DNA from: Microbacterium sp. AZCO
Lineage (GTDB): Bacteria; Actinomycetota; Actinomycetes; Actinomycetales; Microbacteriaceae
Assembly (NCBI RefSeq): GCF_039614715.1
Contig: NZ_CP154857.1
Coordinates: 3,534,001-3,598,000 of the forward strand
Length of the DNA stretch: 64,000 nt
Reading direction: 5' to 3'
Translations under genes and position numbers: made by a program
Part shown: in pieces, positions 7,486 to 47,388 of the stretch
How positions within the stretch are numbered: the stretch's first letter is position 1
Layout of the letters: each line of letters opens with the position of its first letter
Notes under the pieces: model-generated
Database searches by the model: none
Told to the model about the DNA's origin: nothing
What the model saw: the letters and a program-made list of their open reading frames with translations, nothing else

Positions 7486-7507
7486 CCCCGGCGGTGCCGG
7501 TCGCGGA

Positions 7508-7567
7508 CCAGACCTCGGTCCCCGAGGCTGTCGCGGGCCAGACCTCGGTCCCCGAGCTTGTCGAGGG
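7508..7567. repeat. Two direct copies of a 30-bp GGTCCCCGAGCTTGTCGA-type repeat
   Basis: The unit starts CCAGACCTCGGTCCCCGAG and ends in CTGTCGCGGG in copy 1 or CTTGTCGAGGG in copy 2, with copies head to tail. A related copy (CGGTCCCTGAGCTTGTCGAAGGG) lies at 39962-39984. This looks like a dispersed intergenic repeat family. It fills the gap between the sigma gene and parB. Confidence 0.7.
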
Positions 7568-7590: not shown

Positions 7591-8565
7591 TCAGGCCGCG
7601 CCGAACCCGCTCTCGCCGAGCTCCTCGAGGATCCGGTTGAGATCCTGGATGCTGGCGAAATCAATGCTGATCTGGCCTTTCTTGGCCGTCAGCGCGATCC
7701 TCACGCGGGTGTTCAGTCGATCTCCGAGTCGCTCGGCGACCTCGTCCAGGTGTCCTCGCCGCGTTCCGGCGTGGGGCTTCGTGGCGCGCGAGCCCCCGGC
7801 ATCCGGACCCTTCGCCGCGGCCTCCGCCGCGCGCACCGAGAGGTCCTCGTTGACGATCTTGTCGGCGAGCCGCTGCATCGAGTCGTTGTCGTGCAGGGAG
7901 AGAATCGCGCGCGCGTGCCCGGCCGTGAGCACGCCCGCGGCAACGCGCTGCTGCACGGGCACGGGGAGCTTGAGCAGGCGGATGGTGTTGCTGATCTGAG
8001 GTCGCGAGCGACCGATGCGGGAGGCGAGCTCTTCCTGCGTGATGCCGAAGTCCTCGAGCAGCTGCTGGTAGGCGGATGCCTCTTCGAGGGGATTGAGCTG
8101 GCTGCGATGCAGGTTCTCGAGCAGGGCGTCCCGGAGCAGGTGCTCGTCGGCCGTGTCGCGGATGACCGCGGGGATCGAATCCAGCCCTGCCTCGCGCGCG
8201 GCGCGGGTGCGCCGCTCGCCCATGATGAGCTCGTAGGTTCCCTCACCCGTGTCGCGCACGACGACGGGCTGCAGCACTCCGAATTCCCGCACGCTGTGCA
8301 CGAGCTCCGCGAGGTCCTCGGGGTCGAAGACCGTGCGGGGCTGGCGGGGGTTGGGGACGATCGAGTGCGGGTCGATGTGCGCGAGTCGTGCGCCGGGGAC
8401 CTCGAGCAGCTGCTCGACGCTCTCCTCGTCCTCTCGCTCGATGACGGCCGTCGCCGTCGCGGCGGTGCCCCGCGGGAAGAGGACGTCGACGGGACGCTCG
8501 TCGTTCGCCTCGCTCGTCGGGATGAGGGCTCCGATGCCTCGGCCCAGTCCTGTGCGCTTGGCCAT
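7591..8565 (-). CDS. parB: Chromosome partitioning protein ParB
   Basis: This 324-residue CTP-dependent DNA clamp loads at parS. The N-terminus AKRTGLGRGIGALIP is typical of actinobacterial ParB. It has the ParB/Srx-type CTP-binding region with GERRTRAAREAGL, the helix-turn-helix ITQEELASRIGRSRPQISN that reads parS, and a C-terminal dimerisation end (ISIDFASIQDLNRILEEL). The ATG overlaps the parA stop by one base (TGATG). Its target sites are abundant upstream: see the parS entries from 9490 to 15583. Confidence 0.95.
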   Translation of the reverse strand: MAKRTGLGRGIGALIPTSEANDERPVDVLFPRGTAATATAVIEREDEESVEQLLEVPGARLAHIDPHSIVPNPRQPRTVFDPEDLAELVHSVREFGVLQPVVVRDTGEGTYELIMGERRTRAAREAGLDSIPAVIRDTADEHLLRDALLENLHRSQLNPLEEASAYQQLLEDFGITQEELASRIGRSRPQISNTIRLLKLPVPVQQRVAAGVLTAGHARAILSLHDNDSMQRLADKIVNEDLSVRAAEAAAKGPDAGGSRATKPHAGTRRGHLDEVAERLGDRLNTRVRIALTAKKGQISIDFASIQDLNRILEELGESGFGAA

Positions 8566-9506
8566 CAGGAACGTCCTTCTCTCTGTGGTGCGGTGTCGTG
8601 CGCGATGATCTCGACGGCGGCCTCGCGGTAGGCGATGGCGCCGGCCGACTGCCCATCGTAGGCGATGACCGTCTGCCCGAAGCTCGGCGCCTCGGACACG
8701 CGGACCGATCGCGGAATCACGGTCTGCAGCACTTCGTTGGGGAAGTGCTGGCGGACTTCGTCGGCGACCTGCTGGGCGAGGCGTGTTCGCCCGTCGTACA
8801 TCGTCAGCAGGATCGTCGAGAGGAAGAGGCGCGGGTTGAGGTGCTTCTGGATCATCCGGACCGTGCCGAGCAGCTGGCTCAGGCCTTCCAGGGCGTAGTA
8901 CTCGCACTGGATGGGAATGAGCAGCTCATGCGCGGCCGCGAAGGCGTTGATCGTGAGCAGCCCGAGCGACGGAGGGCAGTCGATCAGGACGAAGTCGAGA
9001 CGCTCGTCGAGGCTCCCGAGATAGTCGTCGAGAGCAGTGCGAAGCCGATGTTCGCGCGCCACCTGGGAGACGAGCTCGATCTCGGCACCGGCCAGGTGGA
9101 TCGTGCTGGGGGCGCACAGCAGGTTCGGCGACTCGGGACTCGTCTGGATGATGTCGGCCAGCGGGAACTCGTCGATGAGCACGTCGTAGACCGACGGCGT
9201 GTCTGCGGTGTGCGGCACCCCGAGCGCGGTGGACGCGTTCCCCTGAGGATCGAGGTCGATCACCAGAACGCGGGCACCCACCGACGCGAGTGACGCCGCG
9301 ATGTTGACGGTCGTGGTGGTCTTGCCAACGCCGCCCTTCTGGTTGGAGACAGTGAGAACGCGCGTGTTTCCGGACAGTTCGACGTCGACCGTCTCGAGAG
9401 CGCGTCGTCGCGCTGTGAGATCTGCGAGTTCTCTAGCGATGGGACTGTCGTCGAACGAGAAGGATGCCGCGGCCTCGGCGTTCTCGGGCTGTTTCACGTG
9501 AAACAC
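8565..9506 (-). CDS. parA: Chromosome partitioning ATPase ParA
   Basis: This 313-residue ParA/MinD-type ATPase has the deviant Walker A NQKGGVGKTTTTVNIA, the switch region VLVIDLDPQGNAST and the FVLIDCPPSLGLL strand. It positions ParB-parS complexes. The GTG start at 9506 is notable: codons 1-6 (V/M-F-H-V-K-Q) are themselves a perfect parS site, so ParB loading overlaps translation initiation and probably transcription initiation. It is transcribed leftward with parB. Confidence 0.95.
   Translation of the reverse strand: MFHVKQPENAEAAASFSFDDSPIARELADLTARRRALETVDVELSGNTRVLTVSNQKGGVGKTTTTVNIAASLASVGARVLVIDLDPQGNASTALGVPHTADTPSVYDVLIDEFPLADIIQTSPESPNLLCAPSTIHLAGAEIELVSQVAREHRLRTALDDYLGSLDERLDFVLIDCPPSLGLLTINAFAAAHELLIPIQCEYYALEGLSQLLGTVRMIQKHLNPRLFLSTILLTMYDGRTRLAQQVADEVRQHFPNEVLQTVIPRSVRVSEAPSFGQTVIAYDGQSAGAIAYREAAVEIIAHDTAPQREGRS
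9490..9505. promoter_or_regulatory. parS site, perfect 16-mer, inside the parA start
   Basis: TGTTTCACGTGAAACA is an exact match to the bacterial parS consensus (TGTTNCACGTGAAACA). It covers parA codons 1-6. Confidence 0.95.
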
Positions 9507-10678
9507 TCTCCCTTTCGCGTGCCGTCAGAGCCTCCCCTCCACTCTAGCCGCGTGCACCCCCACGCCCGCCCCGCACCGCTCTGGGAGCGAGAATCGGCCC
9601 GCCTTTTCGTCTGCCCCGAGTGGTTGACAGGCTCCTCAGCCCTCCTCGAGCCAGCTACTTCGTGCGAGCGCAGCTCTCAGCAGGCCCCGCTTCTCATGGG
9701 GGCCCGCGGCTCCACCCAGCAGCCGCGGGTTCCGACTCCCGCGCAAGAAGCACGAGCTCCCACTTGGGTGCCCACACGATGACGGCGTTCTTCGGGCCGG
9801 CCAAGGGCCCCAGCCGATGAAGGGGGACCGCTCCTCCTACGCTCTACACGTCCTCGATGGCCGAGGATAAGTGAATCCGCGTATCGAAACCCGCGTCGGA
9901 CCCCTGCGCCACGCTGGGAGATGCACATCGTCGAACTATCAACGCCCGGGATTCGCTCGTCCGGCTTTGACGGTGACGCGAGCGAGCATCCTGAGGATGC
10001 CAGAGAGAACACCGCGGCGCGATCGTGGCGCCTCAACGACGGAGCGGCAGCGGCATACGCGGGTCGTCGAAGAGGCGCGCAGCGCCGTTCCCCTCCACCG
10101 ATGCCTCACCGGCGCGTTGCGCCTGGCCGACCATCGCACTGACTGTCTGCGCTGTTGCCGCCCTGATGGTCGACGAGACGCGCACCCAGGCGAGACTCGT
10201 AGCCGGCTGGCCCTTTACACGCCGACGAGTCTGCCCGGACCGGCAGGCAGCGCGCTGCTGCCGGGTGTCGCTGTCGAGCTCGGTACTGCTGCCCAGGCTT
10301 TGGACCGAGATTCCCACTCGCTCTCGTGCCGAGGGCGGAGCGACGGCGATTGCGGCCGCAAGGCTCGAGTACGCTGTCGATGCCATCAGCGACGCTCGGA
10401 AACGACTCGACGCGGGGTGTCCCCGATGGCTCGCAACAGTTTTCGGGCGACAGCCACCAGGCGCGCTCCGGCCTTCTCCACCGCGGCGCGGCTTCGCAAA
10501 GGTGTGGCGCGGCCCGCTCCTTCGCGCCATGCGAGTCGTTCTGGCGGCAAGCATCGACAAGCTTCTCGTCTCTGTTGTCGGATGATGCAAATGCCCCCGG
10601 TCCCGCCGTCGGTCACCGGCGGCGGGTGGAGGACGGCTCTGGCCAGCGTTGGCGGGTCTGCCCAAGGTACTCGACCGA
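9507..10678. other. Gene-poor stretch upstream of parA
   Basis: I see no convincing gene in this 1.2 kb. Open frames on both strands have poor codon patterns (arginine/serine-rich, no conserved motifs) and base composition is visibly less GC-biased at third positions than in neighbouring genes. It presumably holds the parAB promoter near 9510-9560. It may be decayed coding DNA or structural spacer within the parS region. Confidence 0.6.
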
Positions 10679-10694
10679 TGTTTCACGTGAAACA
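10679..10694. promoter_or_regulatory. parS site, perfect 16-mer
   Basis: TGTTTCACGTGAAACA is an exact consensus match, 1.19 kb from the parA parS and about 140 bases past the stop of the P-loop gene. Confidence 0.95.
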
Positions 10695-10835
10695 TTAGTA
10701 GTTTGCGCCGCGCGGGGCCTTGGGTCCGGCGTTTGCGGATGCTCTCGACTGGCGGCGGAGCGACCTCACGCGCTTGGTGGAGCATGCGCAGGCCTCTGCT
10801 GACCGCGCGGTTCTGCTGAACGTTCTCCGGGCGCT

Positions 10836-11384
10836 CTACGCGCTCAGCCAGCCGGCGTTGACCAGAATCTCGTGCGCGATCTCCGCGACGGTGCGGTCGT
10901 CGGTGGCGATGCGCACGACGGCTTCGTTCGCGGCGTCGAGTCGTCGCGCTGCGAGGCTGCTGCGGCCGATGTGCTCGTCCAGCGCCGAGCCGATCTCTCG
11001 CTGCGAGAGTCGATGGGCTGCTGTCGCGTCGGTTGCGGTCAGCAGGACCGCGGACGAGTGAGTTTCGCCGCCCAGTGCGGCGGACAGTTCGGCAATCTGC
11101 AGCACGCTCACGCTGTTGGTGAAAATCAGACGCGAGTAGCCGGCGGCTCGGTAGTTCTTCCACATCGCCGCGAGGTTCTGCTCCGCGAGCTTGATGCCGT
11201 CGCGCCAGGGTTGAGGATATGCCTGATCGAGGTTGTCGCCCTCGATGAGTGCATGGCGGATGTCGGCGCGGGCCAAGATCTGCGAGACCTCCGCAGCCAC
11301 GGACGACTTGCCCACTCCCGAGCGGCCGCCGATGAAGATGACGTCCGTCGGGGTGTCCGTCTGCATCTGCTCATCCTGTCGCAT
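10836..11384 (-). CDS. P-loop nucleotide kinase-like protein
   Basis: This 182-residue protein opens with a clear Walker A (IFIGGRSGVGKSSVAAEVS) followed by HALIEGDNLDQAYP, resembling small-molecule kinases of the shikimate/adenylylsulfate/chloramphenicol-phosphotransferase type. A lid-like region contains AAHRLSQREIGSALDEH. Substrate unknown. It may start at 11384 or at the second Met (11366). It is the only convincing gene in the long parS-rich stretch and has no operon partners. Codon use is less GC-biased than the core genes around it, which may indicate acquisition. Confidence 0.8.
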   Translation of the reverse strand: MRQDEQMQTDTPTDVIFIGGRSGVGKSSVAAEVSQILARADIRHALIEGDNLDQAYPQPWRDGIKLAEQNLAAMWKNYRAAGYSRLIFTNSVSVLQIAELSAALGGETHSSAVLLTATDATAAHRLSQREIGSALDEHIGRSSLAARRLDAANEAVVRIATDDRTVAEIAHEILVNAGWLSA

Positions 11385-12330
11385 GGCGCGATGGCGCCAG
11401 CTCTCGTTAGGTGCGCCGGTGCAGCGTTGCCCCAGCCGGAAAGCAGCTTGATGGTCGCTCTCGGACCTGTCCGAGCGGGGCGCGATCCCACGCCGTTCCT
11501 TCAGCTCGTTAAGGGATTGCCCGACGACGCTGCACTCACCGTGAACTCGCCGCTGGGCATGGCCGAACTCGACCGGCTGGCCGTGCTACTCGCGTCGGTC
11601 CGCGATCTGGGCGCCGCATTCGAGGAGCGTCGCGGCGATGCCACGACCTCGCAGCGGTAGAGCGGGACTCATTCGACGCGTAGCGCTTGTCCGCCAGCAT
11701 GAGGTCTGGACGGATCTGAGGACGGCCTCCTCCGACCGGCACACGAATCCGCTCGCGAGTCGCAGCCAGCATGCTGGTGTCGGCAGCCTCGTCAGGAGTA
11801 GGACCAAGAGCGAGGCCGCGGCCCGTCCGTCCAGTCGCAGAACGGGCGACTCTTCGTGGTCAGCCGCGGCGAGGCGGCCGATCACGCGATGAGCGGGCTG
11901 GGTCCTGAACCTCATGTGGTTCGACAGGGCCCCCGCGGCGCGGGGAGAGTGGCGCCGGGCTGGTACACACCGGCGATGACACAATCGATCGGGGCAACCC
12001 AGTGCGAGTCGTCGGACTGTGGCGCGAGAGAGTGGGCCCTCTCTAGCGCCGGCACCCAGACACCTGCCGGAGCCAGCGGTTGATGGTCTGGTAGATCCCG
12101 TTCCGTTCTCTCCGAAGCGCTCTGGAACGTCGTGTCAGGGTGCACCGCTCCGGAAGGGACGCGCCACCCCCTCAGAGACCGTCCGGCGCTCCACCGGTGG
12201 CCGAGCCGCGGCCTTCCTCTCGCGAACGGCGCGGCCGAGCATCGCCCACACCTGGTGCGAGACCACATTCATGCGCGCCGAGTTGCTAAACGAGAAGCTT
12301 CGTGGGACGACGTCACGGGGGAGAGGATGG
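11385..12330. other. Gene-poor stretch with a possible GNAT remnant
   Basis: About 0.95 kb without a convincing intact gene; the open frames have weak codon bias. The only protein-like signal is the possible acetyltransferase fragment described separately. Confidence 0.5.
11586..11984 (-). pseudogene. Possible GNAT acetyltransferase remnant
   Basis: The minus strand near 11586-11665 reads LPLRGRGIAATLLECGAQIA, which fits the acetyl-CoA-binding R-G-x-G-I-A/G motif and following helix of GNAT proteins, and then ends in a stop. The upstream part of the frame has no recognisable GNAT strands, so if real the gene is truncated or frameshifted. The evidence is weak and rests on one motif. Confidence 0.22.
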
Positions 12331-12346
12331 CGTTTCACGTGAAACA
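12331..12346. promoter_or_regulatory. parS site, one outer mismatch
   Basis: CGTTTCACGTGAAACA differs from consensus only at the outermost base. Confidence 0.9.
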
Positions 12347-12575
12347 TCGACCAGTTGGCCAACGCAATGAGGGACCATCGTCGGCCGCACCGCGCAGATC
12401 CTGTTCACGTTCAACATCGATTCGCCGAGGTGAGCCTTCTTCCACCTCGCGACGAGGAGGCGGCGAGCGGGATGAGCCGGAGCCATGCACGGCACGGCAC
12501 GGCCCATCGTGGGGTCGAACGGGGGCGCGAAGCCCTCCGTAATTGGAGATGCGTCGCGGGTGCACGGCGGTGCGC

Positions 12576-12591
12576 CGTTTCACGTGAAACA
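12576..12591. promoter_or_regulatory. parS site, one outer mismatch
   Basis: CGTTTCACGTGAAACA is identical to the copies at 12331 and 13463. Confidence 0.9.
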
Positions 12592-13462
12592 TCGGATTCG
12601 CCAATACATCGAGACGTGAGTCTGCTTCCCACCTCGCGACGAGGAGGCGGCGCGGGAGTCGGCCCGAGGCCATACACGCCGCGCCCACCGAGACGGTGGA
12701 ACACGGGCTCGAAGGACGTCAGTGTGAAGGCTCAGTGGCGTGGTGCGCCGCGTGGATTCGTTTCACCCGAAACGTCGGCGCGCGGGACACCGAGAAGCGG
12801 GCATGCTTCCCACCTCGCGAAGGGTGGCGCGAATGGGCCAGGCGAGGCACACCACGCCCGCTCAAGCGGTGGATCGCGGGCACGAAGGACCTCGGTAGTG
12901 AGGGCTCCGTTGTGGTTGCGTTGCGCGGATTCGTTCACGTGAAGCGTCGGAGCGCCGAGACACCGCGAAGCGGGCATGCTTCCCACCTCGCGAAGGGTGG
13001 CGCGAATGGGCCAGGCGAGGCACACCACGCCCGCCGAAGAGGTGGAACGCGGGCACGAAGGACCTCGGTAGTGAGGCCTCCGTTGTGGTTGCGTTGCGCG
13101 GATTCGTTCACGTGAAGCGTCGGAGCGCCGAGACACCGCGAAGCGGGCATGCTTCCCACCTCGCGAAGGGCGGCGGCGCGAATAGGCCAGGCGAGGCACA
13201 CCACACCCACTCAAGCGGCGGAAGTGGGAACGAAGGACCTCGGTAGTCGTCAGGGCTCCGTTGTGGGGGCGTTGCGCGGATTCGTTCACGTGAAGCGTCG
13301 GAGCGCCGAGACCCCGCGAAGCGGGCATGCTTCCCACCTCGCGAAGGGCGGCGGCGCGGATGGCCCAGGGTAGGCGCACCACGCCCACTGATGCGGTGGA
13401 ACGTGCGCACGAAGGACCTCGGCGGTGGAAGAGGGATGCGCCGTGGGTGCGCTGCGGTAACG

Positions 13463-13478
13463 CGTTTCACGTGAAACA
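13463..13478. promoter_or_regulatory. parS site, one outer mismatch
   Basis: CGTTTCACGTGAAACA closes the repeat array on the right. Confidence 0.9.
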
Positions 13479-14928
13479 TCGGTGCCCGGATACGCCGAGC
13501 GGTGAGCCCGCTTCGACCTCGCGAGCGTAGACGGGCGAAACGGGCCGGGTATGGAAAGCCACGCCGGCAAGGTCGTGGAACGCGGCCGCGAACTTGGCTC
13601 GATGATTGGCGTAGTGGGCCGCAGACAAGGGGACGCTCCCTGAGACCGTACCTACCTCCCTGCGCGAGGGGTCGTGATGAGCCCGGCGACATATGCGGCG
13701 TCACCTCCGCGTAAGAAGGCGGCGAAGGGGCGCGTCAGCAATCGCGGCACCGAGCTCACGAACGTCACGTGGCATCGGGGGTGACCTTCGGGCATCTCAC
13801 GGCCACGCAGCGGCGAACTCAGCTCCGGGCGTTGCAATCGCAGCGCGATGGAAGTCGTCGCTGACGATGGGTTCGCATTCAGCCGGCGGATCGGAACCGT
13901 CGTGTACGGGGACAGCATGGGCGACATCGCCGATCCGCCCCGGCCTGCTCCTCATCCTTCAGAGATGTCAGTGCGGCCGTTAACGGACAGCGCGGCATTC
14001 TCACCTACGGAGTAGGACGGCGACCGGCCGGCGGGTGCATGCGAGGCGGCACATCGAAGTCGGGCGTCCACCGGCTGGCGAACCCGATCGGGGAAATCCG
14101 CGCCGCAGCTCGAACAGCCGCCGGACGACCAATGGCGCAATGTCCGCGCAAGAATCGCGACCGGCGCAGTTCACCACCTACCCGCATATGTCTCAGCGAG
14201 GCTTTTGCAAGGGTCGAGGTGAGCTGCCTCGCAAATTTCGATTGGGTGAGCGCTTCGGAAGAACCGGGAGGAGGATCGATGGGCTCGGGGAAGACGCGCC
14301 CCGTCCGCGCCCTGGCGGCGCCAGCCGACCGGATCGTGATGGCCGTCTTGAGACGAATCGCGATACTCGCTTCGTCGCGCACGCGATCACCACCGGGAGG
14401 CCGCCTGGCGAGCGTATGCGCGTCAAAAGATGCGCATACCGCGGGCACGAGAGTCGGGCGCACCGTGTCTCGATTCGCGCGCCGTGCGCGCTGATCGATT
14501 GCCGGCCAAGAGAGAGTCGGGTGATGGTCGACCTGAACAGCGTCGAGAGACTGATTCGCGCACTTCGGGATGACCGGGGAGCGATCGATCGTGTCATCGG
14601 CAGACGCACTCGACCTGTACTTCACCGGGGTAGTACTGGCGGCTTTGTAGGAGAGCGCCCCTATTCGGGACGGGCTGCGTTCGCACACTGGCCGATTTTT
14701 TGGCCAACCGGTAAGACGGTGAAACGATAAGCTTCGCCGCGAATCAAGCGCGATCTCAACAGATCTCGAAGCACGCACAGAGTCGGCTAAGACCACGAAG
14801 CGGCGACCGACGCCGTTCGCCCGACCCAAGGTCGCACTGACAGCCATACGCCCGCTTCACGGGCCAACTGAGTCCCCACGCAAGAAAGCGCGCCGAAAAG
14901 GCCGGCGTGACCCGACGAAGGAACCCGC
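13479..14928. other. Gene-poor stretch between the parS array and rsmG
   Basis: No frame in this 1.45 kb has a recognisable domain; overlapping open frames on both strands have weak codon bias. The first about 140 bases continue the repeat-unit homology. An operator-like inverted repeat lies at 14414-14439. Confidence 0.55.
14414..14439. repeat. Perfect inverted repeat GTATGCGC-N10-GCGCATAC
   Basis: Arms GTATGCGC and GCGCATAC are perfect complements with a 10-base spacer, about two helical turns between arm centres, the geometry of a dimeric repressor operator. No gene lies near it. Confidence 0.5.
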
Positions 14929-15564
14929 TCAGCGAGCGGCGCGGCGCACCGTGCCCCGGACCACGCGCGTCGGCTCGGCAAGCAGCTCGGCACCGACGAT
15001 CTCGACGCGGGCGTCGGTGATGCCGAACTTGCGGAGAGGCTTCGCAGCGGCCTCGATCTCATTGTCGGCGCTCGCACCCTTGAGGAGGATGAGTTCACCG
15101 CCGTCGCGCACGAGGGGAGCAGTGATCGGCACGAGGGTGCGCAAAGCGCTCACGGCGCGAGCGGTCGCAGCATCCAGCACCGGCCCACGCTTCCAGTCCT
15201 CGGCACGCAGCCGGAGCACCTCCACGTTGTCGAGACCCAGCTCAGTCGCCTGCTCCGTGAGCCAAGCGACGCGGCGCTCCATCGGCTCGATGAGGATCCA
15301 CTCGACGTCGGGCCGCGCGATCGCGAGCACCAGGCCCGGAAGTCCCGCGCCGGACCCGACGTCGCCCACCCGCCCGGAGAACAGGGGAGCGACCACCGCG
15401 CTGTTGAGCACGTGTCGTGACCACAGCCGCGGCGGCTCGAGCGGACCGATCAGGCCACGCTCTTCACCCTGTTCGGCGAGAGCCTGGGTGAAGGCCCGGG
15501 CCAGCTCGATCCGGTCACCGAAGATCTCTGCGGCAGCAGCGGGCTCGGCTTCGTAGGAAGTCAT
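14929..15564 (-). CDS. rsmG: 16S rRNA (guanine(527)-N7)-methyltransferase RsmG
   Basis: This 211-residue SAM-dependent methyltransferase modifies G527 of 16S rRNA (E. coli numbering). Motifs: VGDVGSGAGLPGLVLAIARP (SAM loop), EWILIEPMERRVAWL, and ATARAVSALRTLVP before the catalytic region. It has the family's usual position between jag and parA, and usual length. The ATG is preceded by a parS-like site (15568-15583), mirroring the arrangement at parA. It is read leftward with jag and yidC. Confidence 0.94.
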   Translation of the reverse strand: MTSYEAEPAAAAEIFGDRIELARAFTQALAEQGEERGLIGPLEPPRLWSRHVLNSAVVAPLFSGRVGDVGSGAGLPGLVLAIARPDVEWILIEPMERRVAWLTEQATELGLDNVEVLRLRAEDWKRGPVLDAATARAVSALRTLVPITAPLVRDGGELILLKGASADNEIEAAAKPLRKFGITDARVEIVGAELLAEPTRVVRGTVRRAAR

Positions 15565-15567
15565 CGA

Positions 15568-15583
15568 CGTTCCACGTGAAACG
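15568..15583. promoter_or_regulatory. parS-like site just upstream of rsmG
   Basis: CGTTCCACGTGAAACG keeps the full TTNCACGTGAAAC core and differs only at the two outermost bases. It lies between the jag stop and the rsmG start. Confidence 0.8.
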
Positions 15584-16111
15584 TCAGGCGCGACGGATCA
15601 CGGTGTGACGGTCGGCGCCCTCGCCGTACGACTCCGAGACGAAGCCGCGATCCGCGACGATGTCGTGCACGAGCTTGCGCTCGTAGCTCGACATCGCGGG
15701 AAGGGAGGCCTGGGTCGCACCGTCATCGAGGCGTGCGATCGCCCGGTCGACGAGCACGGCGAGCTCCTGCTCACGCGTGTTGCGTGACCCGCCGATGTCG
15801 AGGATGAGGCGCGAGAACCGGCCGGTGCGGTTCTGCACCGCGATGCGGGTCAGCTCCTGCAGCGCCTGGACGGTGTCGGGCGACGAGAGCAGCGCGAGCG
15901 ATCCCTTGTCGTCAGCCTCGATCGAGACGTAGGCGCGGCCGGCCCGGACGTCGAGGGCCAGGTCGCCGTCGATGTCGGCGATGTCGAGCAGCTCCTCGAT
16001 GTAGTCGGCGGCGATGTCGCCTTCCTGCTCGAGCTGCTCGACGGTCGCGGCGACGCGCTCGGTGGTGGCGGAGTCGACGGGGTCAATCGTGGTCATGGCG
16101 TCCTCGGTCAT
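15584..16111 (-). CDS. jag: RNA-binding protein Jag/KhpB (R3H domain)
   Basis: This 175-residue protein has an acidic N-terminus, a KH-like central domain (VQALQELTRIAVQNRTGRFSRLILDIGG near 80-110) and a C-terminal R3H domain (MSSYERKLVHDIVADRGFVSESYGEG split by the conserved R/H). Jag/KhpB binds RNA and is linked to envelope growth. It sits in the usual yidC-jag-rsmG order. The start could be the first Met (16111) or the sixth residue (MTTIDP, 16096); the second is closer to family length. Confidence 0.9.
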   Translation of the reverse strand: MTEDAMTTIDPVDSATTERVAATVEQLEQEGDIAADYIEELLDIADIDGDLALDVRAGRAYVSIEADDKGSLALLSSPDTVQALQELTRIAVQNRTGRFSRLILDIGGSRNTREQELAVLVDRAIARLDDGATQASLPAMSSYERKLVHDIVADRGFVSESYGEGADRHTVIRRA

Positions 16112-16154
16112 GGGTCGAAACGATGTGATCGGTCAGCGGTGGGCGAGGCGCGGC

Positions 16155-17330
16155 TCAGGTGTTGGCCGCGCCGGGCTTGGCACCCGGCGCGTCACCCGAG
16201 GACGCGCCCGGCTTGCCGGGCGAACCCGAGCCGCCGGACGAGCCGGATCCGCCCGTGCCCGGTCCCTTTTGACCCTGCTTCTTGGCGCGCTGCTTGCTCA
16301 CCGGCTGCTGACGCTTGGGAGCCGCGGCGCGGGCACGCTCGGCCTCCTCGAGGAGACGCTGCTGCTCGGCCTGGTACTTGTCCATCGAGACGACCTTGCC
16401 GGACGAGTCGATCGCCTTGCCCTTGCGTGCGAGGCGCTCCTCACGGGCCTTGGCGGCTTCCGAGCCGGGGGTCGGCATCTCGCGGATGACGAGGAACTGC
16501 TGACCCATCGTCCACAGGTTGCTGACGAACCAGTAGATGACGACACCGAGCGGGAAGAAGACACCCGAGAACACGAAGCCGAGGGGAAGGATCCAGAGCA
16601 TGATGCGCTGCATCTGGTACGCCTGGCCCGTCTTGGCTTCGGGGGAGAGGTTCTTCGAGATGATCTGGAGCTGGGTGAAGAACTGCGAGGCGATCATGAG
16701 CACGACCAGCGTCACGAGGATGATGATCGCCGTCGTGTTGTTCTGGTTGATGGCGTCGATGAGCGTCTCGTGCAGGGACGCCACACCGAACAGCTTCGCG
16801 TTGTAGAACTCAAGCGTCAGCTCGGGCGTGAGGGGTCCGACACCGCCCTGTCCGTTCTCGGCATGCAGCTTGATGGAGCTGAGCGTCGAGTACAGCGAGA
16901 AGAAGACGGGCATCTGCACGAGGAGCGGCAGACAGCTCGAGACCGGTGTGGTGCCGTGCTTCTTGTAGAGCGCCATGGTCTCGCGGCTCATCGCCTCACG
17001 AGACAGCTGGTCCTTCTTGCCCTTGTACTTCTCCTGAACTTTTCGCAGTTCAGGGGCGATTTCCATCATCTTTCGCTGGCTCTTGATCTGCCGGACGAAG
17101 AGAGGGATGAGCGCCGCACGGACGACCACGACGAGGCCGATGATCGCGAGCACCCAGGTGACGCCCGCGGCCGCGGGCAGACCGATGAAGGTGAAGATCG
17201 CGTGCCACGCGACGAGGATCAGCTCGACGACCCACTTCAGCGGCCACAGGATGGTGCCGAGCAGGTCGAAGCCGCCGCCCGACGCCGCCGGGGCGGGGGT
17301 GCTCGTGGCCAGGTGCAACAGATCCAGCAC
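16155..17330 (-). CDS. yidC: Membrane protein insertase YidC
   Basis: This 391-residue protein inserts membrane proteins alone or with SecYEG. It has the five-helix Oxa1/YidC core: a first helix (WVVELILVAWHAIFTFIG), a cytoplasmic hairpin rich in charges (KSQRKMMEIAPELRKVQEKYKGKKDQ), then LPLLVQMPVFFSLYSTL and three more helices. It lacks the large periplasmic domain of Gram-negative YidC, as expected. The C-tail is basic and then Gly/Ser/Pro-rich. It is immediately followed downstream by jag and preceded by yidD. Confidence 0.95.
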   Translation of the reverse strand: MLDLLHLATSTPAPAASGGGFDLLGTILWPLKWVVELILVAWHAIFTFIGLPAAAGVTWVLAIIGLVVVVRAALIPLFVRQIKSQRKMMEIAPELRKVQEKYKGKKDQLSREAMSRETMALYKKHGTTPVSSCLPLLVQMPVFFSLYSTLSSIKLHAENGQGGVGPLTPELTLEFYNAKLFGVASLHETLIDAINQNNTTAIIILVTLVVLMIASQFFTQLQIISKNLSPEAKTGQAYQMQRIMLWILPLGFVFSGVFFPLGVVIYWFVSNLWTMGQQFLVIREMPTPGSEAAKAREERLARKGKAIDSSGKVVSMDKYQAEQQRLLEEAERARAAAPKRQQPVSKQRAKKQGQKGPGTGGSGSSGGSGSPGKPGASSGDAPGAKPGAANT

Positions 17331-17333
17331 GGA

Positions 17334-17684
17334 TCAGTCCTTTCGAAGGGGCACGACGAAACCGTGCGGGGTCAGGTCGTATCGGAAACGCCGATGGGGC
17401 GGGACATCATCCACGCCGCCCTGCGCCCACGGATGGCAGCGGGCGAGCCGCGCCGCGGTGAGGGCGCTGCCCTTAACGAGCCCGTACTGCTGCACGGCCC
17501 CGACGGCGTAGGCGGAGCATGACGGGTAGTACTTGCACACATCGCCGTACGTGTGGGAGATCGTCGCCCGATACGCGTGCAGAAGAGAGAGGCCCAGGTT
17601 GCGCGGGATCAGCGGCACGGCCCGGAGGGCGTCGGATGCCTCGAGCCTGCCCTCGCCGAGGGCGTACGCAGGGAGGACGCTCAT
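17334..17684 (-). CDS. yidD: Membrane protein insertion efficiency factor YidD
   Basis: This 116-residue protein has the YidD signature CKYYPSCSAYAVGAVQQYGLVKG and RLARCHPWAQGGVDDVP, with the conserved cysteines. It is a small membrane-associated helper of YidC. The stop is three bases from the yidC start, and its ATG overlaps the rnpA stop, so rpmH-rnpA-yidD-yidC-jag-rsmG is one leftward transcription unit. Confidence 0.94.
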   Translation of the reverse strand: MSVLPAYALGEGRLEASDALRAVPLIPRNLGLSLLHAYRATISHTYGDVCKYYPSCSAYAVGAVQQYGLVKGSALTAARLARCHPWAQGGVDDVPPHRRFRYDLTPHGFVVPLRKD

Positions 17685-18019
17685 GCCGCGGCCCTGCGGG
17701 CGAGGCAGCGCTGGACTTCGTCGCGCAGCTCGGAGAAGTCGGCGGTCGCCGCGGAGGGAAGGGCGCGGATGACGACATCCGATCCCGGGCGGACACCGGA
17801 GAGCGACTCATGGCACACGGCCTTCAGCCGTCGGCGCACAGTGTTGCGCACGACGGCTGATCCGACTTGCTTGCTCACGATGAATCCGAAACGCGATGCG
17901 CGCTGGTCATCAGAGGTCACGACATACGTGACCGTGTGCGCGGCCGCACAACGACGGCCCCGACGGACGACGGCCTTGTACTCCGCTCCGCGGGTGAGTC
18001 GGTTCGGCCTCGCGAGCAC
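17681..18019 (-). CDS. rnpA: Ribonuclease P protein component
   Basis: This is the 112-residue protein subunit of RNase P. The N-terminus LARPNRLTRGAEYKAVVRRGRR and the RNR-type motif (VVRNTVRRRLKAV) are diagnostic. The GTG at 18019 matches the family start. It lies nine bases after rpmH and overlaps yidD. Confidence 0.95.
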   Translation of the reverse strand: MLARPNRLTRGAEYKAVVRRGRRCAAAHTVTYVVTSDDQRASRFGFIVSKQVGSAVVRNTVRRRLKAVCHESLSGVRPGSDVVIRALPSAATADFSELRDEVQRCLARRAAA

Positions 18020-18028
18020 CGCTCGATG

Positions 18029-18166
18029 TCAGGCCGAGAGCTCGGTGCGGCCCTTGGCGCGCCGCGCCGACAGGATGGCGCGGCCGGCACGCGTGCGCAT
18101 GCGGGCGCGGAAGCCGTGCTTCTTGGCGCGACGACGGTTGTTGGGCTGGAAGGTGCGCTTGCTCAT
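18029..18166 (-). CDS. rpmH: 50S ribosomal protein L34
   Basis: This 45-residue basic protein begins [19 protein letters not shown], the universal L34 sequence, and ends GRTELSA. It is the first gene of the leftward rpmH-rnpA-yidD-yidC unit and diverges from dnaA. Confidence 0.97.
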
Positions 18167-18476
18167 GGAGATCACTTCCGGATCGGTGTCACCGGGAGGC
18201 TCAAGAATCCGGGGACGACGTGCTTACAGGGAACTGCCGCGAGGGCATAAGTCAACCGACTAAGGCTACGTCGAGTCGCCTGAGAACTCAAACTGAGACA
18301 CCGGGATGGGCATTATGCACACCGGGGACCGGGACGCTGGCACCGACACGCAGCCGGATCTACAGTGGAGTTTGCTCACACGACGCCCGCTGACTAGCGT
18401 GTCTCCGGCAGTTATCCACAGGCACGGGATGTCGCTTTCCCTGATCCTGAGGCGCATCACAACACCCGGGGGGGCC
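18167..18476. promoter_or_regulatory. rpmH-dnaA divergent promoter region with a DnaA box
   Basis: These 310 bases contain no gene. A consensus DnaA box (TTATCCACA, 18412-18420) lies 57 bases before the dnaA start, consistent with dnaA autoregulation. The region must hold promoters for both directions; I cannot assign -10 elements with confidence. Confidence 0.8.
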
Positions 18477-19910
18477 ATGTCTCAGCACGACATTCCAGAT
18501 GTACCAGTCTGGGCAGCCGTGCTCGGTGAGCTCGTCGTCGACGATCGCGTCACGCCGCAGCTCCACGGGTTCCTCAACCTGGCGGTGCCTCAGGGCGTCA
18601 TGAGCGGCACGCTCTACCTCGACGTGCCCAACGATCTCACCGCGGCGCAGATCAACAAGCGCATGCGCGCGCCGATCATGGAGGCGCTGGCCCGCGTGCC
18701 GCAGGGCGAGCCTGTCGCGACGACGTTCCGCGTCGTGGTCAACCCCGAGCTCGCCGACCAGCACCTCACGGCGCCGATCCCGGTGCAGTCCGCCATCCAG
18801 CCCGAGCCGCTTTCCGCGCCGGCGCCCGGAGCCGTGCTGCGTCCGCGCATCGACGAGCCCGTCGACACAGCATCCGCCCGCTCCGACTCGCGACTGAACC
18901 CGAAGTACACGTTCGACAACTTCGTCATCGGGCAGTCCAACCGCTTCGCCCATGCCGCGGCGGTCGCGGTCGCGGAGGCGCCGGCCAAGGCATACAACCC
19001 GCTCTTCATCTACGGCGACTCGGGACTCGGCAAGACGCACCTCCTGCACGCCATCGGCGACTACGCGATGAGCCTGTACTCCGGCATCCGGGTGCGCTAC
19101 GTCTCGAGCGAAGAGTTCACGAACGACTTCATCAACTCGATCGCGAACAACCGCGGCTCCGCATTCCAGGCGCGGTATCGGGATGTCGACATCCTCCTGA
19201 TCGACGACATCCAGTTCCTGCAGGGCCGGGCCGAGACGCAGGAAGCCTTCTTCCACACGTTCAACACGCTTCACGACCACGACAAGCAGGTCGTGATCAC
19301 GAGCGATGTGCCCCCCAAGCACCTGACCGGCTTCGAAGACCGCATGCGCAGCCGCTTCGAGTGGGGCCTCATCACCGACGTGCAGGCTCCCGACCTCGAG
19401 ACCCGCATCGCGATCCTCCGCAAGAAGGCGCAGAGCGAGCGTCTGCACATCCCCGACGAGGTGCTCGAGTACATCGCGACTGTCGTGTCGTCGAACATCC
19501 GCGAGCTCGAGGGCGCCCTCATCCGCGTGTCGGCCTTCGCGAGCCTCAATCGCTCGACGCTCGACATGTCGCTCGCGCAGACGGTGCTCCGCGACATCAT
19601 CGATCAGGACGACGCCAACGTCATCTCGCCGACCGACATCATCACCGCGACGGCCGCCTACTTCAAGCTGTCCGTCGACGACCTGTACGGGTCGAGCCGG
19701 TCTCAGGCCGTCGCAACGGCCCGTCAGATCGCGATGTACCTGTGCCGGGAGCGCACGAGCCTCTCGCTGCCGAAGATCGGCCAGCTCTTCGGCAACCGCG
19801 ATCACACGACGGTCATGTATGCGTACAAGAAGATCAGCGACCTCATGAAGGAGCGCCGCTCGATCTACAACCAGGTCACCGAGATCACGGCCTCGCTCGG
19901 CCGCCGCTGA
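18477..19910 (+). CDS. dnaA: Chromosomal replication initiator protein DnaA
   Basis: This 477-residue AAA+ initiator has an N-terminal DnaB-interaction domain, a variable linker (about 95-135), the nucleotide-binding domain with Walker A GDSGLGKTHLL and Walker B LLIDDIQFL, and domain IV with the box-recognition helix FGNRDHTTVMYAYKKI near the C-terminus. The ATG at 18477 (MSQHDIPDV) follows GGGGGGCC. Upstream in-frame Mets would add sequence across the DnaA box and are unlikely. Confidence 0.97.
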   Translation: MSQHDIPDVPVWAAVLGELVVDDRVTPQLHGFLNLAVPQGVMSGTLYLDVPNDLTAAQINKRMRAPIMEALARVPQGEPVATTFRVVVNPELADQHLTAPIPVQSAIQPEPLSAPAPGAVLRPRIDEPVDTASARSDSRLNPKYTFDNFVIGQSNRFAHAAAVAVAEAPAKAYNPLFIYGDSGLGKTHLLHAIGDYAMSLYSGIRVRYVSSEEFTNDFINSIANNRGSAFQARYRDVDILLIDDIQFLQGRAETQEAFFHTFNTLHDHDKQVVITSDVPPKHLTGFEDRMRSRFEWGLITDVQAPDLETRIAILRKKAQSERLHIPDEVLEYIATVVSSNIRELEGALIRVSAFASLNRSTLDMSLAQTVLRDIIDQDDANVISPTDIITATAAYFKLSVDDLYGSSRSQAVATARQIAMYLCRERTSLSLPKIGQLFGNRDHTTVMYAYKKISDLMKERRSIYNQVTEITASLGRR

Positions 19911-34235: not shown

Positions 34236-34870
34236 CCGACGCGGCGGGGCGGGGCATCCTCGTGGTGGACAACCACGACAGCTTCGTCCACACCCTCGTG
34301 GGCTACCTGCACGAGCTGGGCGCGCGCACGACCCTGGTCGAGGCCGATGCCGTCACCGACGCACCCTCCGCGATCGCCGGGTATGACGGTGTGCTCGTCT
34401 CTCCCGGGCCAGGGACGCCCGAGCGCGCGGGGGCGTCCGTCGCCGTCGTCGGCGTGGCGGCTGAGCGCGGCATCCCTCTTCTCGGCGTCTGTCTCGGCCA
34501 TCAGGCGATCGGTGTCGCCTTCGGCGCGGCGGTCGACCAGGCGCCCGAGCTCATGCACGGCATCACGTCCCTCGTGCACCACGACGGAGGCGCGCTCTAC
34601 GCCGGGCTCCCCGACCCGTTCGTCGCCACGCGCTACCACTCGCTCGCGATCGAGCCCGAGACGATTCCGGCCGCGCTCGAGGTGACGAGCCGCACCGACG
34701 GCGGGGTCGTCATGGGGGTCCGGCACCGCGCACTGCCGATCGAGGGCGTGCAGTTCCACCCCGAGAGCGTGCTCACCGACGGGGGCTACCGGCTGCTGGG
34801 CAATTGGCTCGAGACGGTCGGGATCCGGGATGCCGCGACCCGCGGTGCATCGCTGAGCCCGCGTCGCTGA
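34232..34870 (+). CDS. pabA: Aminodeoxychorismate/anthranilate synthase glutamine amidotransferase subunit
   Basis: This 212-residue class I glutamine amidotransferase has the opening LVVDNHDSFVHTLVGYLHELG, oxyanion segment SPGPGTPERAG, nucleophile Cys in PLLGVCLGHQAI, and the His/Glu pair in VQFHPESVLTD. It supplies ammonia for aminodeoxychorismate (folate) or anthranilate (Trp) synthesis. The isolated location next to pknB, with no trp genes nearby, is the usual place for the copy named pabA/trpG in Actinobacteria. GTG start overlaps the upstream stop. Confidence 0.88.
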   Translation: MTDAAGRGILVVDNHDSFVHTLVGYLHELGARTTLVEADAVTDAPSAIAGYDGVLVSPGPGTPERAGASVAVVGVAAERGIPLLGVCLGHQAIGVAFGAAVDQAPELMHGITSLVHHDGGALYAGLPDPFVATRYHSLAIEPETIPAALEVTSRTDGGVVMGVRHRALPIEGVQFHPESVLTDGGYRLLGNWLETVGIRDAATRGASLSPRR

Positions 34871-34938
34871 ACCGGCGTCGGCCTTCGGCGCTGAACGGGC
34901 GTCAGCCTGCCGCGCTGAACCGGCGTCAACCTGCCGCG
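34867..34938. repeat. Three tandem 24-bp repeats between pabA and pknB
   Basis: Three head-to-tail copies of a unit reading CTGAACCGGCGTC then about 11 bases ending in GCG, starting at 34867, 34891 and 34915. The first covers the pabA stop and the third the pknB stop, and every copy contains a TGA on the minus strand at the position of the pknB stop. Confidence 0.8.
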
Positions 34939-46807: not shown

Positions 46808-47388
46808 TGGGGGCACGGCTCGTCAAGCATGCGATCGCATTCGCGGTCGACGTCCCATTGCGCGGCAACGAGTTCCGGCTCCTTGTGCACATGGCCGTGA
46901 CAGCGCTCGACGAAGATGACCCCCCTCGCTACTTCGACTCCCGCGAATCATCCGCACTCGCGCTCGGTAGGCGCGTTCCCGACGTAGGCGCACCTGAGGC
47001 GAACGCCGAGCGCGCCGCGGCCTTCCAAGCGGTCAAGGTCGCGGTCGCGGGCCTGGTCGCGGTCGGGGCGGTGCGGCGACTGAAGTCCGGCAAGTCGGGT
47101 CAGCGGGCCGAATTCGCTGTCGCACTCGACCTCGCCGCCGCCCAGCGATCCGCCGAGTATCGCAAGCGCCGAGGGGTACGGAATTCCTACCCCGGCACGG
47201 TACGGAATTCCTACCCCAGTCAGTACGGAATCTCTACCCCTGAGGGGTACGGGACTCCTACCCCCAAGGAACCACTGAGGAACCACAAGGACCAGACGAC
47301 AGGACACAGGGCATCCAGTCCCAGCACCACCTCACTTGCCCCTGTGGATAAGTCGGACGTCAGCGAAGATCGCGAGGCGGCGGCATGA
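46804..47388 (+). CDS. Candidate replication protein with embedded iterons
   Basis: This protein of 193-194 residues starts GTG at 46804 or ATG at 46807. The N-terminal part (LVKHAIAFAVDVPLRGNEFRL) and middle (FQAVKVAVAGLVAVGAVRRLKSG) resemble a winged-helix initiator/HTH protein found in actinobacterial phages and plasmids. The C-terminal part is low-complexity and encoded by four iteron-like repeats (see separate entry), followed by a DnaA box. A replication role is inferred from the repeats, not from a clear family match. Confidence 0.65.
   Translation: MMGARLVKHAIAFAVDVPLRGNEFRLLVHMAVTALDEDDPPRYFDSRESSALALGRRVPDVGAPEANAERAAAFQAVKVAVAGLVAVGAVRRLKSGKSGQRAEFAVALDLAAAQRSAEYRKRRGVRNSYPGTVRNSYPSQYGISTPEGYGTPTPKEPLRNHKDQTTGHRASSPSTTSLAPVDKSDVSEDREAAA
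47173..47264. repeat. Four iteron-like repeats inside the replication-protein candidate
   Basis: Consensus GGTACGGAATTCCTACCCC, near-palindromic. The TACGG element starts at 47177, 47201, 47224 and 47248, spacings 24, 23 and 24 bases. Because one spacing is 23, copies 1-2 are read as VRNSYP while copies 3-4 are read in another frame as YGISTP and YGTPTP: the DNA is conserved, not the peptide. This indicates protein-binding iterons. Confidence 0.85.
47343..47351. promoter_or_regulatory. DnaA box beside the iterons
   Basis: TGTGGATAA (reverse of TTATCCACA), a perfect match, 79 bases downstream of the last iteron. Iterons plus a DnaA box is the layout of theta-type plasmid origins. Confidence 0.75.

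Follow-up and report, generated by a model that had tools for sequence, protein, structure and literature searches.

Chromosomal parS sites lie near oriC in several copies per chromosome, and some of them are degenerate or unbound, as described in the available portions of papers on Corynebacterium glutamicum, Caulobacter, Myxococcus and Streptomyces (PMC7083940, PMC10387095, PMC3778016, PMC7333895). Each intact parS is an established entry site for ParB-CTP clamps (PMC8299390, PMC10387095). A single parS suffices for chromosome architecture in C. glutamicum, according to the accessible text of that study (PMC7083940), and the benefit of many sites is therefore not evident. On plasmids, the centromere of F (sopC, or parS-F) is given in the source excerpt as a run of twelve tandem repeats, each of 43 bp, in which ten inverted-repeat ParB sites of 16 bp are found (PMC6238139). 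Tandem centromere repeats on plasmids and parS clusters on chromosomes are thus already known; for a chromosomal parS cluster composed of satellite-like units, no precedent was found in the open-licence literature. Eukaryotic centromeric satellites lie next to the segregation site and consist of tandemly repeated units of 150-300 bp, with a uniform core, diverged edges and fast turnover, and a short conserved protein box may persist within an otherwise drifting unit.

The DNA analysed here (the window, 64,000 nucleotides) is part of a single-contig Microbacterium chromosome of 4,231,970 bases. The locus of interest lies near oriC, between parA (8565..9506, minus strand; Pfam AAA_31 and CbiA) and rsmG (gidB; 14929..15564, minus strand; Pfam GidB), which forms the other border of the interval. 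Beyond parA lies parB (minus strand; Pfam HTH_ParB, ParB_N and ParB_C), whose ORF is listed as 7591..8907 and, because it overlaps parA, probably starts further in. On the rsmG side of the block follow jag, yidC, dnaA and dnaN, of which dnaA (18306..19910, plus strand; Pfam Bac_DnaA) marks the oriC neighbourhood. The 4.23 Mb chromosome has five intact parS, all of which fall within the window. Two of these lie outside the block: one (9491-9504) shares bases with the opening codons of parA (MFHVKQ), and the other occupies 10680..10693 (no strand) in the same interval. A one-mismatch form (GTTCCACGTGAAAC, T to C; 15569..15582, no strand) is located between rsmG and the R3H (jag) gene. In a 16-mer parS scan allowing up to three mismatches, six sites were found in the window against 0.02 expected, three of them inside the block. 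Two marks of a chromosomal ParABS centromere, near-exact parS palindromes and an adjoining parAB and oriC, are present.

Within the interval, a repeat search groups eight parS-like 20-mers into one family, with start-to-start distances of 70, 175, 183, 172, 173, 178 and 181 bp. The first is an intact 14-mer at 12332..12345 (no strand), 70 bp ahead of a head-to-tail row of seven homologous units (12400-13637, plus strand). These are 172-183 bp long, and each starts with a parS or a damaged parS. Unit u1 (12400..12574, 175 bp) begins with a damaged site at 12402-12415 (four mismatches, counted from the letters); u2 (12575..12757, 183 bp) carries an intact parS at 12577-12590; u3 (12758..12929, 172 bp) has two mismatches at 12760-12773, where the centre CACGTG has become CACCCG; u4 (12930..13102, 173 bp) has three mismatches at 12932-12945, with changed arms and the central TTCACGTGAA retained; u5 (13103..13280, 178 bp) and u6 (13281..13461, 181 bp) repeat the u4 lesion at 13105-13118 and 13283-13296; and u7 (13462..13637, about 176 bp), the most diverged, again starts with an intact parS at 13464-13477. 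The units were aligned by their parS-like heads, the end of u7 being placed by the period, with no boundary seen there. In this alignment the inner units u3-u6 are 76-91% identical to each other, and the outer units u1, u2 and u7 reach 49-68% identity in comparisons with the remaining units, all above the shuffled-unit control (mean 25%, maximum 41%). Unequal exchange leaves tandem arrays with just such a uniform middle and diverged edges, and homologous head-to-tail units with a core more alike than the edges are marks of a satellite-type array. Tandem Repeats Finder reports 12623-13422 with a period of 173, 4.5 copies and 87% matches, the sole row with a period above 60 among 15 in the 64 kb. 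Short-period tandem repeats also occur elsewhere in the window, at 1867-1973 (18 bp), 7496-7563 (30 bp), 34865-34938 (24 bp) and 47175-47264 (24 bp).

Three of the eight sites are intact (12332, 12577, 13464) and five are damaged, in the order intact, damaged, intact, four damaged, intact. The damage is of three kinds: that at 12402, that at 12760, and the one shared by 12932, 13105 and 13283, so that three of the five damaged sites are a single lesion, CGTTCACGTGAAGCG, in three copies. The genus has 109 parS sites with a single mismatch, and 52 of them have T4 changed to C (GTTCCACGTG), the change also carried by the site at 15569. It gives a form present on both arms of the Myxococcus parS consensus in the available portion of its description (PMC3778016). 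Outer positions 1, 2 and 3, those altered in the three-mismatch block sites, account for 4, 12 and 11 of the 109 changes, and the two central positions altered at 12760 for 9 each. An earlier note, made from the letters of this DNA, had proposed eight parS-like sites in one block and homologous DNA between them, to be checked by a tandem-repeat search; the repeat family, the unit identities and the period-173 array bear this out. Its regular spacing from the second site on also holds, with a range of 172-183 rather than 173-183 bp, and its unit heads are found in all seven units but not at the first site (12332), which heads no full unit. It was right that the outermost sites (12332 and 13464) are intact and that CGTTCACGTGAAGCG occurs three times; however, five sites rather than four inner ones are damaged, 12402, the second, included, and the 12760 lesion differs from the rest.

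Compared with the described systems, the block resembles chromosomal parS clusters in consisting of parS palindromes near parAB and oriC. It departs from them in that its sites head head-to-tail units with spacer DNA of their own; the consulted portions of those papers describe parS sites as clustered or separated and mention no homologous tandem units. Like F sopC, as far as the source excerpt goes, the block is a tandem array with ParB sites in its units, not every unit having one, although in the block this is judged by sequence only. Unlike sopC, with its 43-bp units on a plasmid, it is chromosomal and built of 172-183 bp units with canonical parS, and the arrays of other Microbacterium species have other periods; its contig is the 4.23 Mb chromosome, and the block DNA has no plasmid match. 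With eukaryotic centromeric satellites it shares the unit length, the uniform core and diverged edges, the conserved box in a drifting unit and the fast turnover. It differs in having seven units where those satellites have thousands and in that parS is a sequence-specific loading site.

The window unit is private to its species, as is usual for satellites: a search of 365 other Microbacterium genomes, in which two candidates per genome were scored, gave no extended match to the block, only pieces of 23-50 bases in 13 of them. The phenomenon, in contrast, recurs. Of 198 genomes searched, 189 had a ParA match, and 137 of these were hand-picked by rank of ParA similarity from a list that was not followed to its end, most matches at contig ends being left out; after four of 138 stretches whose contig ended before rsmG were dropped, 134 parA-rsmG intervals remained (133 relatives and the window), each including 60 bp of parA. 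A tandem array with a period of at least 60 is present in 38 of the 134, and one with parS-like sites (up to three mismatches) in register in 26, the window included, with at least three sites in register in 15 intervals, at least four in nine and at least five in five. One run comprises 11 sites about 290 bp apart, eight of them intact. Two further positions are also commonly occupied by a parS with at most one mismatch, namely the 40 bp around the start of the parA match (100/134 stretches) and the rsmG-jag gap (99/134). Relatives without any repeat, which the earlier note had named as speaking against it, are indeed found as regards the window unit and the 108 of 134 intervals in which no array with parS in register is detectable, whereas arrays of this kind occur in 25 other intervals.

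The units of other species can have partial copies in relatives, and their numbers differ between species whose interval DNA is partly homologous. Counting copies with at least 45% of the unit covered, one unit occurs four times in L126, once in L125 and not at all in L127, with two, three and three copies in L136, L138 and L128; a second has five copies in L173, three in L161, one in L128 and none in L238; and a third has four in L151 and one in L157. Furthermore, 69 of 586 pairs of neighbouring parS from the same genome have flanks more homologous than the 99.9% level of between-genome pairs.

Within these arrays parS appears to be held by selection while the spacers drift, judging from copy-to-copy divergence, which is 0.051 in the 14-bp parS core and 0.149 in the rest of the unit. 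The core is the less divergent in 27 of 31 arrays (Wilcoxon p 1.2e-5), which come from 24 genomes, overlap in some cases and are therefore not independent, and the requirement for a parS-like consensus favours conserved arrays. A consensus unit with parS (up to two mismatches) is present in 31 of 55 arrays, against an expectation under random placement of 19.7 when each array is collapsed to one copy (P 0.0007) and of 21.7 when it is left uncollapsed (P 0.004), and in 16 of 30 arrays of at least 2.5 copies, against 10.8 expected (P 0.028). The window array is an exception, its inner units having lost parS. With divergences of 0.107 in parS and 0.148 in the spacer (rank 0.28), it keeps the site little better than the spacer, so the argument for selection rests on the other species.

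The reading that accounts best for these observations, and is probably correct, is that tandem duplication enlarges these parS clusters, which afterwards decay in the manner of satellites, as part of the Microbacterium chromosomal centromere. On this reading a stretch of about 175 bp with one parS was multiplied head to tail in the parA-rsmG interval, probably through unequal exchange or slippage during replication, after which the copies diverged. Intact parS, given the known mechanism of ParB, would load ParB-CTP clamps, and the extra sites may raise or buffer this loading, the cluster presumably being kept by selection as a whole. Such redundancy would make single sites expendable, so that some decay, and one decayed unit was itself multiplied, yielding three of the damaged inner sites; the same process of duplication and decay has run in other Microbacterium species. 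Of the two readings offered in the earlier note, the one in which the region expanded by duplication and its sites then decayed is supported by the uniform core and diverged edges, the 25 other intervals, the varying copy number and the stronger conservation of parS than of spacer. The locus shows one route to a parS cluster, tandem duplication with parS retained, at several ages within one genus.

The main rival, which we consider unlikely, is neutral repeat turnover, whereby the interval tolerates tandem repeats and parS is copied along without benefit. In its favour, 36 of 106 Microbacterium intervals longer than 1 kb hold an array, and in 24 of the 55 arrays from parA-rsmG intervals the unit has no parS within two mismatches, which implies that the interval breeds repeats anyway and that the enrichment of parS is modest. 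The loss of parS from the window's inner units is likewise consistent with it, as is the finding that, where spacer divergence exceeds 10% (21 arrays), a mean of 21% of the other 14-bp windows are at least as conserved as parS. It is weakened by the conservation test, in which the divergence of parS is one third of that seen elsewhere in the unit, and by the over-representation of parS units among the arrays. The 1.09 Mb examined beyond rsmG contains no arrays, but this DNA is mostly coding and hence no test of neutral turnover.

A rather improbable alternative is that selection acts on spacing itself, favouring parS about 140-190 bp apart for bridging or clamp traffic, with tandem duplication as the means of obtaining it. 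Such distances are near one DNA persistence length. The median length is 151.5 bp for units with parS (32, with up to three mismatches, counting that of the window), compared with 95 bp for the 23 units without (Mann-Whitney p 6e-5), and this excess of length goes beyond size bias (P 0.017); units of 156 bp also occur in an array of another genus. The longer parS units offer a weak hint of selection on spacing. However, parS-unit periods range from 75 to 293 bp, and spacings that follow one another are hardly more similar than after permutation when all genomes are taken (P 0.06) and no more similar in those without arrays (P 0.20), the latter result leading us to reject regular spacing as a rule in such genomes.

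The second reading of the earlier note, a graded loading array in which damaged sites bind ParB weakly and act as spacers, brakes or decoys for clamps, finds little support and seems very improbable. The retained centre of the three-mismatch sites is compatible with residual binding, and a Myxococcus parS with two substitutions, in the accessible part of that report, is still bound, with affinity about 10-fold lower but not zero (PMC3778016); moreover, 24 of the 95 copies in the 31 arrays are imperfect. The other 71 are intact, though, and 12 of the 31 arrays are intact throughout. The block itself has three unrelated lesions, with three of its five damaged sites derived from one duplicated lesion, and in C. 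glutamicum no ParB was recruited to degenerate parS that had three or more mismatches, as stated in the portion of that study available (PMC7083940). The damaged inner sites are thus mostly one broken unit multiplied and probably not decoys, and on comparison with these characterized sites the damaged sites most likely load little or no ParB. Nor is intactness at the ends a rule: in other arrays 22 of 24 end sites and 30 of 42 interior sites are intact (Fisher p 0.066, in a test biased in favour), and the pattern was rejected on this basis. An assembly artefact is scarcely credible for units 9-51% diverged in a single-contig genome with similar structures in 25 other genomes.

Other identities for the block were considered and set aside. 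As for a protein-coding repeat, none of the ten interval ORFs tested for this, four of which overlap the block, has a Pfam family above its cut-off, and there is one insignificant match (E 0.29). A structured RNA is not indicated by Rfam, which gave no match for 9000-19000 at E up to 1. A promoter or terminator array was rejected with no promoter-like site and three terminator-like sites against 2.1 expected in 11600-14950, and a plasmid or phage origin with no match of the block DNA in plasmids or phages. The element CCACCTCGCGA, considered as a genus-wide partner of parS, has six copies in the window interval and one copy in a single one of the 133 others. Outside the block, the interval contains a 182-aa P-loop kinase-like ORF (10836-11384) with an APS_kinase match just above the cut-off and weak matches to other AAA families, the only Pfam-matching ORF among those tested in the interval.

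Comparison with 60 other genera of the family (hand-chosen from 84 found, mostly higher-scoring, and examined on the parA-rsmG side only) reveals a marked difference in the interval, whose medians are 1953 bp with five intact parS in Microbacterium and 195 bp with one intact parS elsewhere. Among the other genera, one of 60 intervals holds an array and none an array with parS in register. Most of these intervals are short, which may by itself explain why arrays are so rare in them; when only intervals longer than 1 kb are compared, arrays are present in one of 13, and in 36 of the 106 from Microbacterium (p 0.062). The genome total of intact parS has a median of three in the 84 other genera, incomplete genomes included, and six in 31 Microbacterium. 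In the 25 Microbacterium genomes compared (of 35 with totals), none of the 162 intact parS falls outside the range from the start of parA to 700 bp beyond rsmG, and 149 are within the parA-rsmG interval proper. The corresponding figure for the 56 other genera with a known total is 85 of 190, and only three of the 56 have all their intact parS there. In 31 of the 56, however, all intact parS lie within the stretch fetched near parA; having parS close to parA is thus widespread in the family, and a compact arrangement does not in itself distinguish Microbacterium. The genus is set apart by a long interval that holds most of the sites.

On a broader reading, which we hold tentatively, the Microbacterium centromere may be a satellite-like locus, with an interval about ten times longer than in sister genera that contains nearly all intact parS, subject to species-specific tandem duplication, homogenisation and decay, with parS under selection and perhaps a preferred unit near 150-190 bp. 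If so, bacteria would have a counterpart of centromeric satellites, and parS clusters in general could arise in this way. The natural arrays of intact and broken sites provide material for testing how ParB loading depends on the number and spacing of sites.

Among 80 ParA loci of named genomes, two of them Microbacterium, no array with at least two parS was found, and the 42 of these loci that were listed have no array with a period of at least 60. In another genus, the L326 interval contains a 180-bp array of 4.6 copies (about 2.3-3.2 kb) whose unit has no parS, only a look-alike with five mismatches, GTGTCACGGAATCC. G466, likewise from a genus of the family other than Microbacterium, has a 156-bp array of 2.6 copies and 79% matches at 1343-1749 of its stretch (L334). 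Four intact parS, 157, 158 and 172 bp apart, are present there, three of them within the array, which is situated across parA from rsmG, on the flank where one would expect parB.
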